Assembly: GCA_002839825.1 (NCBI GenBank)
Contig: PGYU01000004.1
Span: 62,001 to 126,000 of the forward strand
Length of the DNA: 64,000 bases
From: Ignavibacteriae bacterium HGW-Ignavibacteriae-1
Lineage (GTDB): Bacteria > Bacteroidota > Ignavibacteria > Kapaibacteriales > UBA2268
Reading direction: 5' to 3'
In this document: positions 5,551 through 53,911 of the stretch, piece by piece
Layout: each line of letters opens with the position of its first letter
Position numbering within the stretch: position 1 is the first letter of the stretch
The notes under the pieces: model-generated
Told to the model about the DNA's origin: nothing
Database searches by the model: none
Seen by the model: the letters and a program-made list of their open reading frames with translations, nothing else
Translations under genes and position numbers: made by a program

Positions 5551-5583
5551 AAGGGTTGCCCAATCATGGGCAACCCTTTTTTT
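5551..5583 (+). terminator. Rho-independent terminator of the OPT transporter gene
   Basis: A perfect 9-bp stem gggttgccc / gggcaaccc (5553-5561 and 5568-5576) with a 6-nt loop is followed by seven T. It starts 26 bp after the stop codon. A-T pairs can extend the stem. Confidence 0.9.
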
Positions 5584-6360: not shown

Positions 6361-6387
6361 TAGGGACAGAACAGCGTTCTGTCCCTA
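6361..6387. repeat. 27-bp palindromic repeat (TAGGGACAGAAC type)
   Basis: Arms tagggacagaac and gttctgtcccta (12 bp, perfect) flank the trinucleotide agc. The core ggacagaac/gttctgtcc recurs at 53780-53800. No T-run follows, so it is not a plain terminator. Confidence 0.85.
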
Positions 6388-6461: not shown

Positions 6462-6562
6462 GTCCCGTCAGTTGTTATAATTGACGTATAGGGATGAATC
6501 TGAATTATAGTCGTCATTTGTAATTATTGACGATACACAAACTTTAAAACAACTGACGGGAC
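6462..6562. repeat. 101-bp element with 15-bp terminal inverted repeats
   Basis: gtcccgtcagttgtt (6462-6476) is the exact reverse complement of aacaactgacgggac (6548-6562). The 71-bp interior is AT-rich, has a further cgtca/tgacg pairing and no ORF. The shape is MITE-like or a long hairpin. No second copy is seen in the window. Confidence 0.6.
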
Positions 6563-6597
6563 GGTAAAATCATTGTTCAGACAAACAAATTGGAGTT

Positions 6598-6676
6598 AGA
6601 CTTCGGAAGTCTTTATAATTAAATTCAAGAAACTTATTATATTAATATACTTTAGAAAATTAGACTTCCGAAGTCT
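6598..6676. repeat. Pair of inverted 15-bp palindromes downstream of the broken T9SS gene
   Basis: agacttcggaagtct (6598-6612) and its reverse complement agacttccgaagtct (6662-6676) are each 6-3-6 palindromes, separated by 49 AT-rich bp. The unit design is the same as in the 33-bp elements, but with a longer spacer. The second unit ends 7 bp before the sorting-domain stop codon. Confidence 0.75.
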
Positions 6677-6772
6677 TCATTTGTCACATCTTCACAAACA
6701 TCTTCGACCGACTACCAATACGAATGTAATATACTCCACGAGGGAGATGCGAAATATCAATTCTTAAATTAT

Positions 6773-6795
6773 CGCTCCCTGAGCCTGTCGAAGGG
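6773..6795. repeat. 23-bp repeat, copy inside the sorting-domain coding sequence
   Basis: Identical to 6401-6423. On the coding strand it encodes HPSTGSGS and fills the loop before RIDIS (site B of the sorting domain). Confidence 0.85.
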
Positions 6796-6853
6796 TGAGC
6801 GGTCGGGGCGGTCATTACACATTCACCAAGCATATTGAAAATTTTGACATCAG

Positions 6854-6886
6854 AACCTTCCGAAGGTTCGAAACCTTCGGAAGGTT
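6854..6886. repeat. 33-bp double-palindrome element inside coding sequence (15-3-15)
   Basis: aaccttccgaaggtt (6854-6868), spacer cga, then the reverse complement aaccttcggaaggtt (6872-6886). Each arm is a 6-3-6 palindrome. It encodes PSEGFEPSEG in frame, at the loop after EYITI (site A). Nearly the same element lies between genes at 53687-53719. Confidence 0.9.
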
Positions 6887-7037
6887 TCGAAATTGTAATA
6901 TATTCCGATGCGGGATTCGGAAAGAGTTTGTACTGTAGTTCATCAGCAACTTCAATAACGCTTGTGGCAATATCGAATGTAAATTTGTACAATAAATGAC
7001 CTGCCCAAGTATTTCGCAGGAATATTGTATTATTATT

Positions 7038-8156
7038 CTAGTAATAGCCTGCATTTGGAGTTAATTGCATTATACTACTTTCAAATTTAGGAAATTCTAT
7101 CCAATCTTTGCCACCATTGTTTGTTATATATTGACGTCCTCCTGAATAATTCAGCCAAATATTATCGTCATCATAATATATGAATGACGCCAAGTAAATA
7201 CGCTCTGCATCCGATTTTGTGATGAAGCTCCCAATATTAATTTTATTCCATGATATCCAACCATCTTTGGTATTTATTAGAAATAAATCCTGCTTAATAG
7301 TACTATCATTCACCTCAGTTATTTCAAAGAGTGGAATCCATGCAACATTTTTGCTAGTGTGTTTTATAGAGATATTTTTGAAAGGAATTTCGAATGAATT
7401 CCACGTTATACCGGAATTAAGAGTATGATAATTATAAATTATGGAAATTAAACTATCTTCCTGAACTTTTTGATATAGATTAACATTAAAATTATATTCT
7501 TTATCGTTGTAAATTCTTAAATTATATATATATGAGCTATCTTGAATAGTTGGTAATGGTATCTCTTCCCATGAATTGTTTGTTTTCGAAAATTTAAAAA
7601 TACCCTTTCTGGTAGAAGTCTTTTTTCTAAAATCCCAGTTTGTACCGAGAATATATAGATTTCCCGATTCATCGAATTGTGGATAATTAAGCAAAAGTTT
7701 TTCAGGAAAATTGTTTACCTCCCATGTTTCTCCAAAATCATAAGACATCATATACACTCCTGTATCAGCCGGAGGTTGCGGTCCAAAAAGAGCAAGATAC
7801 GGCTGGGTAGTAATGCAAATGAAATCACCGTAACAACTAATTCCTGTTACAGCGGGTGGAGCAATTCCTTTCATTACCCAACGGTCGTATATGTCAATCT
7901 CGCTTATAAATTCCCATGAATCTCCTGCATTTGAAGTCCGGAAAATATAAAATTCATAATCTTGATTTCTAATTAGAGCAACCCCATTTACCGAATCTTT
8001 GAAGGTAATGCCATCGAATGATTTAGCACCGTCAGATATTTGAAAATCCGCTACTTGCTTTATTTCATAATCTACAATTGGGCTGCTGAAAATATTTTGA
8101 ACTGAACCTAAAAGGTTTGCTAAGATGAAAGCGAAAAGAAGTATAAATTTTTTCAT
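7038..8156 (-). CDS. Secreted BNR/sortilin-like beta-propeller protein, T9SS cargo, ended by a premature TAG
   Basis: A 372-residue product with a signal peptide (MKKFILLFAFILANLLGSVQ). It carries propeller-type motifs such as FRTSNAGDSWEF, MSYDFGETWEV and ITNNGGKDWIEF, each an Asp-box-like (N/D)GG.(S/T)W repeat. The frame stays open for 117 more codons after the TAG (7038-7040) and then encodes a T9SS sorting domain, so the natural protein was probably about 490 residues, close to its paralogue at 52145-53554 (469). As it stands the product would be exported to the periplasm but lack the signal for surface secretion. TAG is an ordinary stop in this genome (it ends speA and topA). Repeats flank the gene on both sides. 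Confidence 0.8.
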   Translation of the reverse strand: MKKFILLFAFILANLLGSVQNIFSSPIVDYEIKQVADFQISDGAKSFDGITFKDSVNGVALIRNQDYEFYIFRTSNAGDSWEFISEIDIYDRWVMKGIAPPAVTGISCYGDFICITTQPYLALFGPQPPADTGVYMMSYDFGETWEVNNFPEKLLLNYPQFDESGNLYILGTNWDFRKKTSTRKGIFKFSKTNNSWEEIPLPTIQDSSYIYNLRIYNDKEYNFNVNLYQKVQEDSLISIIYNYHTLNSGITWNSFEIPFKNISIKHTSKNVAWIPLFEITEVNDSTIKQDLFLINTKDGWISWNKINIGSFITKSDAERIYLASFIYYDDDNIWLNYSGGRQYITNNGGKDWIEFPKFESSIMQLTPNAGYY

Positions 8157-33266: not shown

Positions 33267-33307
33267 TAAATAGCCGAAACAAGAGCAATGTAGAATGCTC
33301 TTAAAGG

Positions 33308-33340
33308 TAAAGGGTTGCTTTTGGCAACCCTTTACTTTTT
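33308..33340 (+). terminator. Rho-independent terminator of the sigma/anti-sigma unit
   Basis: A perfect 11-bp stem taaagggttgc / gcaacccttta (33308-33318, 33324-33334) with a 5-nt loop is followed by cttttt. It ends the two-gene unit about 40 bp after the stop. Confidence 0.88.
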
Positions 33341-51972: not shown

Positions 51973-51991
51973 TCAAGCTCTTTATATAACA

Positions 51992-52098
51992 AACATAGCC
52001 CACGTTTTTAAGCCTGGGCGAAATTTAAAAATCCCCCAAAAGCCTTTCCCCCTCTATTAAGCAGGGGTTAGGGGGTGTTAAGAAAATTTATTTTAGGA
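51992..52098. repeat. Composite repeat block: catagccca piece plus C/G-rich repeat copy 4
   Basis: aacatagcccacg (51992-52004) matches 8396-8408. From 52029, aaatcccccaaaagcc, then ttccccctctatta and ggggttagggggtgtta, repeats copy 2 (44265-44347). The tail tattttaggac appears inverted compared with the other copies. The block ends 46 bp before the stop of the T9SS gene at 52145. Confidence 0.78.
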
Positions 52099-52144
52099 CA
52101 AAGACTTAACAAAAATAAGTCATACAAATCATAGTTCAGACAGG

Positions 52145-53554
52145 CTACATCTTCACAATCATCTGTGTCCGACTACCAATGCGCACGTAATACACGCCGC
52201 GATGCAAATGCGAAATATCAATGCGTTGCAGATGTCCAACATCTCCAAGATGTTGGACATCTGGCAATTCAATAACACTCTCACCAAGCATATTGTAGAT
52301 TTTGAATTCCTCATTATGAACAAGGGGTTGCAACCCCTTGTTTTCAATATTGATTTCAATATACTCCGTTGCCGGGTTAGGGTGGATGGAGAAACTAATT
52401 TGGGGTAAATTGAAATTATCTTTTACTGAAGTGGACTTTCCAACATATTTTAATATCCTTGGACCGTATCCCAATAATGGAGTAGTTGGTGACATAAATG
52501 TATTAGTAAAACTTGTGCTTCCTACCTGATATTCCCCTTCAAAAGTAAAGTATGGACTTTTTTGCCAGCTTATACCACCGTCAGTTGTTCTTAAATGTGC
52601 TCCACTCGTGTTTACAGCAATGAAATTTAATGAATCTGCAACAGTAAAATTCCCAAATCCGCCCCCTTGTTCAATAATTTCGTAAATCTTATTCCAAGTT
52701 AATCCACCATCAGTCGTTTTATAAAAACTTGTTGAGCTTGTGTCTTTTGTACCTTTAAAAATATCTCCTTTTACAAGTAGTTCGAGATGCCGACTGAATC
52801 CTGTTTTTTCATTTATAAAAGTAAAGAATGAGTAAAAATTATCTTTCTTTGAAATTTTATTAATTTGCGACCAAGTTTTACCCCTATCGTATGATTTAAA
52901 AAAATACATAGACGTATCATTAACTGTATTTACCCAACTACTCATTATTAATATATTTGAATCAATAATGTTGAATGTTGCTCCAGGGTATTTTAGTTGA
53001 GGATTTGTATTAAATTGCATTTTTGACCAATTTTCACCACCGTCTGATGTTATAAAGATATTGTCTAACCCACTGTATTGCAAAATCCCAATTTTACCTT
53101 TCATATACATTCTATTTAACTCAAAATAGAACGGTTCTAAAGTTGTAATTTTTTGAGAATAATCCCAATTTTCACCACCGTCTGATGTACGTAGGACATA
53201 GCCGGAATCGCAGCCTATTACAATCAAATCTTTTTCGGGATAAAACACAAATCTCTTGAGTGGATAGTCAGGGGGTCTTGAATCAATCCGGATATCAAAC
53301 CAAGTATTCCCACCATCGGTAGTTTTTCTAATCCTTGAATATTGCGATGCGGACAAGAAGTCTCCGTAATGCCCAATGCAATTTGAGGAATCATAGCAAC
53401 TAATGTTAAAATAGTATGATGGTGAATTTCCACCTTCTGAATATGACAAAACCGAATCAATTGTTATCCAATCACCTCCATCAGGATTTATGTAGAGTTG
53501 AGCATTAACACCGGTACACATTGCAAATAAAAATATTAAAAACAATCGAATCAT
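52145..53554 (-). CDS. Secreted BNR/sortilin-like propeller protein with repeat-bearing T9SS sorting domain
   Basis: A 469-residue protein with a signal peptide (MIRLFLIFLFAMCTGVNA). At least six Asp-box/BNR motifs are visible: TTDGGNTWFDI, TSDGGENWDYS, TSDGGENWSKM, SYDRGKTWSQI, TTDGGLTWNKI and TTDGGISWQKS. These suggest a beta-propeller like sortilin or Ycf48. The sorting domain (about residues 390-469) has HPNPATEYIEI, FKIYNMLGESV and RIDISHLHRGVYYVRIGSR. Two inserted stretches are encoded by palindromic DNA: NKGLQPL (405-412) and DVQHLGDVGHL (about 431-442). It is the paralogue of the broken gene at 6684-8156. Confidence 0.88.
   Translation of the reverse strand: MIRLFLIFLFAMCTGVNAQLYINPDGGDWITIDSVLSYSEGGNSPSYYFNISCYDSSNCIGHYGDFLSASQYSRIRKTTDGGNTWFDIRIDSRPPDYPLKRFVFYPEKDLIVIGCDSGYVLRTSDGGENWDYSQKITTLEPFYFELNRMYMKGKIGILQYSGLDNIFITSDGGENWSKMQFNTNPQLKYPGATFNIIDSNILIMSSWVNTVNDTSMYFFKSYDRGKTWSQINKISKKDNFYSFFTFINEKTGFSRHLELLVKGDIFKGTKDTSSTSFYKTTDGGLTWNKIYEIIEQGGGFGNFTVADSLNFIAVNTSGAHLRTTDGGISWQKSPYFTFEGEYQVGSTSFTNTFMSPTTPLLGYGPRILKYVGKSTSVKDNFNLPQISFSIHPNPATEYIEINIENKGLQPLVHNEEFKIYNMLGESVIELPDVQHLGDVGHLQRIDISHLHRGVYYVRIGSRTQMIVKM
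52230..52262. repeat. 33-bp double-palindrome element inside coding sequence (15-3-15)
   Basis: agatgtccaacatct (52230-52244), cca, then the exact reverse complement agatgttggacatct (52248-52262). Each arm is a 6-3-6 palindrome. In frame it encodes DVQHLGDVGHL at site B of the sorting domain. Same geometry as 6854-6886 but unrelated sequence. Confidence 0.9.
52319..52342. repeat. 24-bp perfect palindrome inside coding sequence
   Basis: aacaaggggttg and caaccccttgtt meet without a spacer (52319-52342). It encodes NKGLQPLV at site A of the sorting domain, the position of the 33-bp element in the paralogue. Confidence 0.88.
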
Positions 53555-53677
53555 TTATCACTCCACTTTACAAATTAAAATATCAATTTTTAATTGTTCA
53601 CTTTATATTTAGTATAAACAAGTGAAAAGTCATTTTGTCACACCTGTATCAAAAAAAGTTGAAAAATTGCTACAAAG

Positions 53678-53735
53678 ACGAGACGAAACCTTCCGAAGGT
53701 TTCGAACCTTCGGAAGGTTAAGAATGTGTCTCGTC
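53678..53735. repeat. 33-bp double-palindrome element, intergenic copy with outer inverted repeat
   Basis: aaccttccgaaggtt (53687-53701), tcg, aaccttcggaaggtt (53705-53719). Both arms equal those at 6854-6886; the spacer is tcg instead of cga. An outer pair gacgagac (53678-53685) and gtctcgtc (53728-53735) encloses it. The 53555-53911 gap has no convincing gene. Confidence 0.88.
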
Positions 53736-53749
53736 CTAAATTATTTCCT

Positions 53750-53774
53750 CCCACGAATAAATTCATGGGCTATG
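53750..53774. repeat. catagccca-family fragment
   Basis: cccacgaataaattcatgggctatg shares aaattcatgggctatg with 8457-8471 and cccacg with 8404-8408 and 52000-52004; cccac and gtggg-like ends are partly lost. It lies upstream of the T9SS gene, while 51992-52004 is on its other side. Confidence 0.65.
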
Positions 53775-53779
53775 AATTC

Positions 53780-53800
53780 GGACAGAACGCTGTTCTGTCC
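53780..53800. repeat. Palindrome ggacagaac-gct-gttctgtcc
   Basis: Arms of 9 bp are identical to the inner arms at 6361-6387, with the trinucleotide inverted (gct for agc). On the right side the match continues through ccta. Confidence 0.8.
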
Positions 53801-53810
53801 CTACATTTCC

Positions 53811-53843
53811 AGATGTGCCACATCTGTCATGTGTGGCACAACT
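53811..53843. repeat. Degenerate 33-bp double-palindrome element
   Basis: agatgtgccacatct (53811-53825) is a perfect 6-3-6 palindrome. After gtc comes atgtgtggcacaact (53829-53843), an imperfect inverted copy. Spacing 15-3-15 matches the other elements; the sequence resembles the copy at 52230-52262. Confidence 0.65.
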
Positions 53844-53849
53844 ACGGAA

Positions 53850-53879
53850 CAAAAAAAAAGCTGCCCAATTGGACAGCTT
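53850..53879 (-). terminator. Rho-independent terminator of the lipoprotein gene
   Basis: On the minus strand, aagctgtcc-aatt-gggcagctt (one mismatch) is followed by eight or more T. It lies about 32 bp beyond the stop of the gene at 53912. Confidence 0.8.
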
Positions 53880-53911
53880 CTTCAGTTTCTAATCTCCACC
53901 CCCGTACCGTT

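Follow-up and report, generated by a model that had tools for sequence, protein, structure and literature searches.

The window analyzed here, i.e., the whole stretch of 64,000 nucleotides, carries palindromes having the same length and plan but not the same sequence, which are present both between genes and, in frame, inside them. Three perfect 15-3-15 palindromes were identified in the window, and each 15-mer in them is itself a perfect 6-3-6 palindrome (Table 1). The earlier note on this DNA had listed four such elements, but the one at 53811-53843 shows three mismatches; of the two sequence types with two elements each described in that note, only one was retained, since the elements at 6854 and 53687 both belong to family A, while that at 53811 is not a decayed copy of the family B element at 52230. 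The assignment of this decayed element to family B was rejected, as its sequence fits the AGATGTGCC family; this fourth family (AGATGTGCCACACCT-3-AGGTGTGGCACATCT) was also found elsewhere in the genome and beside a related RAYT (REP-associated tyrosine transposase) gene. The inverted pair at 6598-6676 is real, but its arms, previously taken to be the same as those of the 33-bp elements, share only the core CTTCsGAAG with family A.

Table 1. Palindromes of the window and the coding sequences associated with them.
Feature	Coordinates	Strand	Remarks
15-49-15 unit, arms AGACTTCGGAAGTCT / AGACTTCCGAAGTCT	6598..6676	.	repeat also flanking the genome's own RAYT
Open frame coding sorting domain that carries cassettes A and G	6684..6992	-	
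Family G imperfect palindrome (CCCTGAGCCTGTCGAAGGG)	6777..6795	-	site 2 of the 6684..6992 sorting domain; within HPSTGSGS
Family A 33-bp element	6854..6886	-	in frame PSEGFEPSEGS, site 1 of T9SS sorting domain
Gene, 469 aa	52145..53554	-	BNR/sortilin-like repeats and T9SS type A C-terminal sorting domain
Family B 33-bp element (15-3-15)	52230..52262	-	in frame DVQHLGDVGHL, site 2 of T9SS sorting domain
Family F palindrome, 12-0-12, 24 bp	52319..52342	-	site 1 of the 52145..53554 sorting domain, reads NKGLQPLV
Family A 33-bp element	53687..53719	.	intergenic
Decayed element, 3 mismatches	53811..53843	.	family AGATGTGCCACACCT-3-AGGTGTGGCACATCT

Palindrome families in the genome

The genome amounts to 3.23 Mb in 43 contigs, and the window is located on contig C43. 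Judging from the relatives of its RAYT, this genome stands close to Candidatus Kapaibacterium/Ignavibacteria. The census was based on whole-genome pattern searches and on 0.97 Mb of stretches, which are enriched for sorting-domain genes, so that the densities given here are not genome-wide averages. Two checks had been named beforehand, a comparison with null sequences and a search for copies elsewhere. No nested 15-3-15 palindromes were present in 60 simulated sequences (first-order Markov copies of the window), and the copies in the genome are many: family A (AACCTTCCGAAGGTT) has 30 at up to three mismatches, 24 of which are perfect, and family B (AGATGTCCAACATCT) has nine, all of them perfect. 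In the 0.97 Mb examined, 40 of the 87 perfect palindromes with arms of at least 12 bases measure exactly 33 bp. The 33-bp palindromes split into several families, namely A, an A variant (AAACTTCGGAAGTTT), B, C (ATTCATCCGATGACT), and the fourth family, AGATGTGCCACACCT. About half of the A and C copies are intergenic and stand in unrelated surroundings, and the B copies of this genome are all coding. Many of the non-coding copies lie 30-350 bp past sorting-domain genes, and the 15-49-15 unit is often located a few bases past a stop codon.

Other palindromes also occur in the window. Those at 6361-6387 and at about 53778-53803 belong to another family (TAGGGACAGAACAGCGTTCTGTCCCTA and kin), the core of which has 13 exact copies in the 0.97 Mb examined, none of them in sorting domains. 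An inverted pair around CCGTCAGTTGTTATAATTGACG ... ACAACTGACGGGAC is present at 6463-6563, and pieces of this motif (GTCAGGTGT) stand ahead of several A copies located between genes. The palindromes at 5551-5578 and 33305-33337, which have the cores AAGGGTTGCC / GGCAACCCTT, are unlike the 15-3-15 families.

In-frame cassettes in T9SS sorting domains

All the coding copies of the three families detected in the 0.97 Mb examined (12 of A, nine of B, and four of C) are located inside T9SS type A C-terminal sorting domains (TIGR04183 / PF18962), of which this 3.2-Mb genome contains at least 150. Of the 152 sorting domains read, 34 contain palindromes or their decayed forms at either or both of two sites, where the residues that they encode enlarge two loops. 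The context is ..PNPATEYITITK[PSEGFEPSEGS]EVKIYNTLGECV.. at site 1 and ..LGECVIELA[DVQHLGDVGHL]QRIDISHLPRGVYY.. at site 2. Seven or eight types of palindromes occur at these sites, the lengths measured for perfect types being 33, 30, or 24 bp, and the cassettes of sites 1 and 2 are paired in many combinations. The reading frame is constant within each type and, as had been observed in the window, the coding copies are in frame and contain no stops. No perfect palindromes with arms of nine bases or more were found in the cassette-free sorting domains.

The window gene at 52145..53554, whose sorting domain carries two palindrome cassettes, scores 40.7 bits with PF18962 (cut-off 27) and 30 bits with TIGR04183 (cut-off 23). 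In the AlphaFold model of this domain, the mean pLDDT of which is modest (71.7), both cassettes are placed in loops between strands, and the best PDB match, with the mirolase T9SS domain 8qb1, is weak (E 0.04). The second sorting domain of the window (6684-6992) is separated by a stop from the upstream open frame 7038-8156 on the same strand, and the two may perhaps form one broken gene.

The elements are much better conserved than the sequences around them. The nine B copies of this genome show no changes at all, while the adjoining 30-36 bases are 82-84% identical; in family A, the identity amounts to 99% inside the element vs. 71% in the flanks. In two other genomes, B and a B-like element are present in frame in long open frames which do not code for sorting domains (L315 and L311), where they are read in the same DVxHL.DVGHL frame as the copies in sorting domains.

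The cassettes were also compared between this genome and two congeners, G001 and G002, orthology being judged by flanking similarity alone. At site 1 of the L004 gene, A is present in this genome and D in G002, the sequence being closely similar on both sides; the orthologs at L005 share A at site 1 but differ at site 2 (C vs. E); and the gene at L039 carries F and B here, A and B in G001, and D and G in G002. The cassettes of L011 and L040 each differ from those of G001, but both loci match one and the same G001 locus, so that one of these two comparisons involves a paralog. Not a single base of family B differs between this genome and G001, within a wider match of about 83% identity. The fact that the tracts differing between orthologs extend slightly past the palindromes speaks for recombination between paralogous sorting domains as the present route of the cassettes. 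No clean empty site of 33 bp was found in the two congeners around the intergenic copies (82-96% identity), where the regions differ wholesale and no 33-bp footprint can therefore be read. In G001, the 1.9 kb corresponding to window positions 51973-53880, which include the sorting-domain gene and three palindromes, are absent; CTTCAGTTTCTAATC is present at both ends of this segment and once in G001, which suggests a deletion or insertion between direct repeats.

RAYT genes and the palindromes beside them

The earlier note had proposed that a Y1/REP-associated transposase be looked for, and a search with two peptide patterns did yield one Y1 transposase in this genome. Its HUH domain scores 26.6 bits with PF01797 (cut-off 23), and its score with NCBIfam NF047646 (64.5 bits) is below the equivalog cut-off of 80; its resemblance to known sequences suggests that it is a RAYT. 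It carries the HUH motif THFH, the motif YIHQNP, and the SS motif. On either side of this gene stand AGACTTCGGAAGTCT/AGACTTCCGAAGTCT pairs whose spacers are related, i.e., the unit present at 6598-6676 in the window, in which the spacer has 49 bases, not 3. For families A, B, and C, this genome yielded no cognate RAYT. The idea that its own RAYT might drive family A was rejected, since A-rich relatives do not have that RAYT: no relative of it was detected in the A-rich genomes G033 and G036. The palindromes flanking other Y1 genes are of kinds other than A.

A set of 80 RAYT relatives from Ignavibacteria, Bacteroidota, Chloroflexi, and Cyanobacteria was sampled, the loci being not independent by descent. 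A 33-bp palindrome with up to two mismatches was found within 500 bp of 45 of these 80 relatives, and on both sides in 22 cases. The perfect palindromes up to 400 bp from RAYTs show a sharp peak at 33 bp (47 palindromes in 24 loci); farther from RAYTs, only three perfect 33-bp palindromes were counted in a 3.4 times larger stretch, and at 29 loci with other types of Y1 genes, no 33-mer was present up to 400 bp away. The sequence of the flanking 33-mers varies between loci, families A, B, and C being represented: A flanks the RAYT at L196, B that at L247, C those at L195 and L197, and the fourth family that at L194. The claim that the geometry is conserved and the sequence is not was thus borne out, as RAYT relatives are flanked by palindromes having the same geometry and unrelated sequences. 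In the tree, the genome's own RAYT groups with loci at which the flanking repeat is the fourth family, C, A hairpins, AGACATCC, or B. In genome G011, where the RAYT is 53% identical, arrays of AGACATCCAATGTCT TCC AGACATTGGATGTCT are present on both sides, which again corresponds to the 15-3-15 plan with nested 6-3-6 palindromes.

Among the 35 different perfect 33-mers, some positions of the 15-mer hardly vary: A1 in 33, T6 in 28, C8 in 27, A10 in 32, and T15 in 33. In 24 of these 35, at least five of the six inner pairs are kept. The earlier suggestion that a REP-type transposase reads the shape rather than the sequence is supported as far as the association with a RAYT clade is concerned, but given these five near-fixed positions and the locus-specific repeats of the RAYTs, the recognition probably does not involve the shape alone. 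A GTAG/GTGG foot was found neither in the flanks examined nor in the 33-mers adjacent to RAYTs.

The copy numbers link family B to its RAYT. The genome in which the RAYT is flanked by B (G149) carries 97 B copies, most of those read being non-coding, vs. one or two in three genomes with other RAYTs. The link between A and a RAYT is weaker: relatives of the own RAYT are lacking in the A-richest genomes, and only three A doublets were counted in the genome whose RAYT is bordered by A hairpins.

Origin of the palindromes and comparison with known systems

In the light of these data, the 33-mers are very probably REPIN-like units belonging to one RAYT clade, which have been kept in the loops of sorting domains as exchangeable in-frame cassettes. 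The unit would consist of two inverted 15-base REP hairpins with 3 bases between them, and the enzymes would be the members of a clade of Y1 (HUH) REP-associated transposases, the nearest known group being TnpA_REP subclass 2.6 (Bertels group 5). The enzyme may recognise a hairpin having a 6-base stem, a 3-base loop, and the near-fixed residues A1, T6, C8, A10, and T15, and may copy or move the doublet in the form of single-stranded DNA. The 15-3-15 plan would then persist while the remaining sequence drifts in step with the enzyme. Several 33-mer families presumably reached this lineage, and the RAYTs cognate to A, B, and C would have been lost from this genome or have always been absent from it. 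The two loops of the sorting domain, which apparently tolerate 8-11 extra residues, would have taken up palindromes long ago; since the search for a RAYT cognate to A, B, or C was negative here, the cassettes would now be exchanged mainly by recombination between paralogous sorting domains. A more far-reaching reading, to which we give slightly less than an even chance, is that a single Y1 clade spanning several phyla uses a fixed 33-base double-hairpin grammar accepting almost any sequence, and that its units were captured as loop modules of a secretion tag, mobile DNA continually rewriting two surface loops of many secreted proteins.

The main rival explanation is that the coding palindromes are simply passengers of sorting-domain genes undergoing duplication and conversion, no transposase being involved now or recently. 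It accounts for the fact that all nine B copies of this genome are in sorting domains with similar flanks, and it is in line with both the lack of a cognate RAYT for A, B, and C here and the differences between orthologs reaching a little past the palindromes. It does not account for the intergenic A and C copies in unrelated surroundings or the B copies dispersed at 97 places, mostly non-coding where read, in the genome with the B-flanked RAYT, nor for the fact that B is unchanged and A 99% identical inside elements outside which the differences amount to about 17-29%. Duplication and conversion are likely to describe the present spread within sorting domains, and recombination between sorting-domain genes is the more likely route of the coding A, B, and C copies, but the origin of the palindromes is left unexplained; as a complete account, this explanation is rather unlikely. 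Copying of hairpins without any enzyme, whereby template switching during replication perfects imperfect palindromes and keeps them so, would explain why the arms are perfect and often nested, their perfection exceeding that of the flanks. It is very improbable, however, since it predicts neither a single total length of 33 bp across unrelated sequences nor a peak at this length that occurs near one transposase clade and is absent near other Y1 genes, nor the presence of identical sequences at many places.

We regard as marginally less probable still the idea that the hairpins have an RNA function, protecting or ending the transcripts of secreted-protein genes near the 3' end of the mRNA. The positions of the non-coding copies past sorting-domain genes and of the 15-49-15 unit just past stop codons are what this idea predicts, but a 3' location is common to the REP elements of other bacteria (PMC3733652), about 118 other sorting-domain genes have no palindrome, and the cassettes of sites 1 and 2, some of which are shorter or imperfect palindromes, are part of coding sequences and are freely exchanged. 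As for chance, or codon choice in DNA coding for loops, its probability is negligible: the null sequences gave none, exact repeats occur at many places and in many genomes, and a chance origin is refuted by these counts.

REP-like units as the origin of the 33-mers can be compared with several systems, among which REPINs (PMC3116915) and intragenic REPs (PMC3733652) are already known. Like REPINs (Bertels and Rainey, 2011), the units described here are dispersed inverted doublets of palindromes folding into one hairpin, each type being probably tied to its own RAYT gene; they differ from REPINs, which measure about 70-80 bp or more, in that they are 33 bp long, have a 3-base spacer and no GTAG/GTGG foot, and include coding copies in frame. 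Intragenic REPs and the palindromic elements of Rickettsia (Di Nocera et al., 2013, PMC3733652) are likewise in frame and do not destroy the genes, but they occur at scattered sites in many unrelated genes, whereas the coding copies found in the 0.97 Mb examined here occupy two fixed loops of one domain family, and several unrelated palindromes share one site. In-frame insertions of REPs tolerated in one region of a protein are also described (Quentin et al., 2018, PMC6006769) for the tnpA_REP genes of subclass 2.4, where the host is the transposase itself and the REPs have GT[AG]G feet.

The closest system is TnpA_REP subclass 2.6 (RAYT group 5), to which the same paper attributes "atypical secondary structures" and the motif set NH[LIV]H, WQ, YIH[QN]NP, and SS. 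The genome's own RAYT fits this description in its YIHQNP and SS motifs, and this subclass, too, is mostly from Bacteroidota and allies and has genes bordered by unusual palindromes that recur at other places in the genome. The differences are that its HUH motif is THFH instead of NH[LIV]H, that the flanking structure has an exact plan here (33 bp, 15-3-15) and a near-consensus, and that the clade sampled extends to Chloroflexi and Cyanobacteria. Units characterized only as "atypical" in the passages of text considered can now be searched for by their length, their plan, and the near-consensus AGAYNTCCNANRTCT, although the 15-3-15 geometry may already be drawn in the figures of that paper. These natural pairs of enzymes and repeats, in which the geometry is constant and the sequence varies, provide a ready system for addressing the long-standing question as to what RAYTs recognise. 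Neither palindromes in T9SS sorting domains nor REPs in Kapabacteria were found to have been reported; in the T9SS cassettes, palindromic repeats have been turned into variable protein modules, the turnover of which is visible between species of one genus.

Some RAYT loci depart from the 33-bp plan. The relatives at L199 and L192 are flanked by direct copies of a stretch containing TGGCAATTCATGAATTGCCA, with no 33-mer. At L208 and L209, the hairpins AGATGGAGTCCATCT are present as inverted pairs about 33-35 bp apart, which means that the spacer length varies in parts of the RAYT clade.
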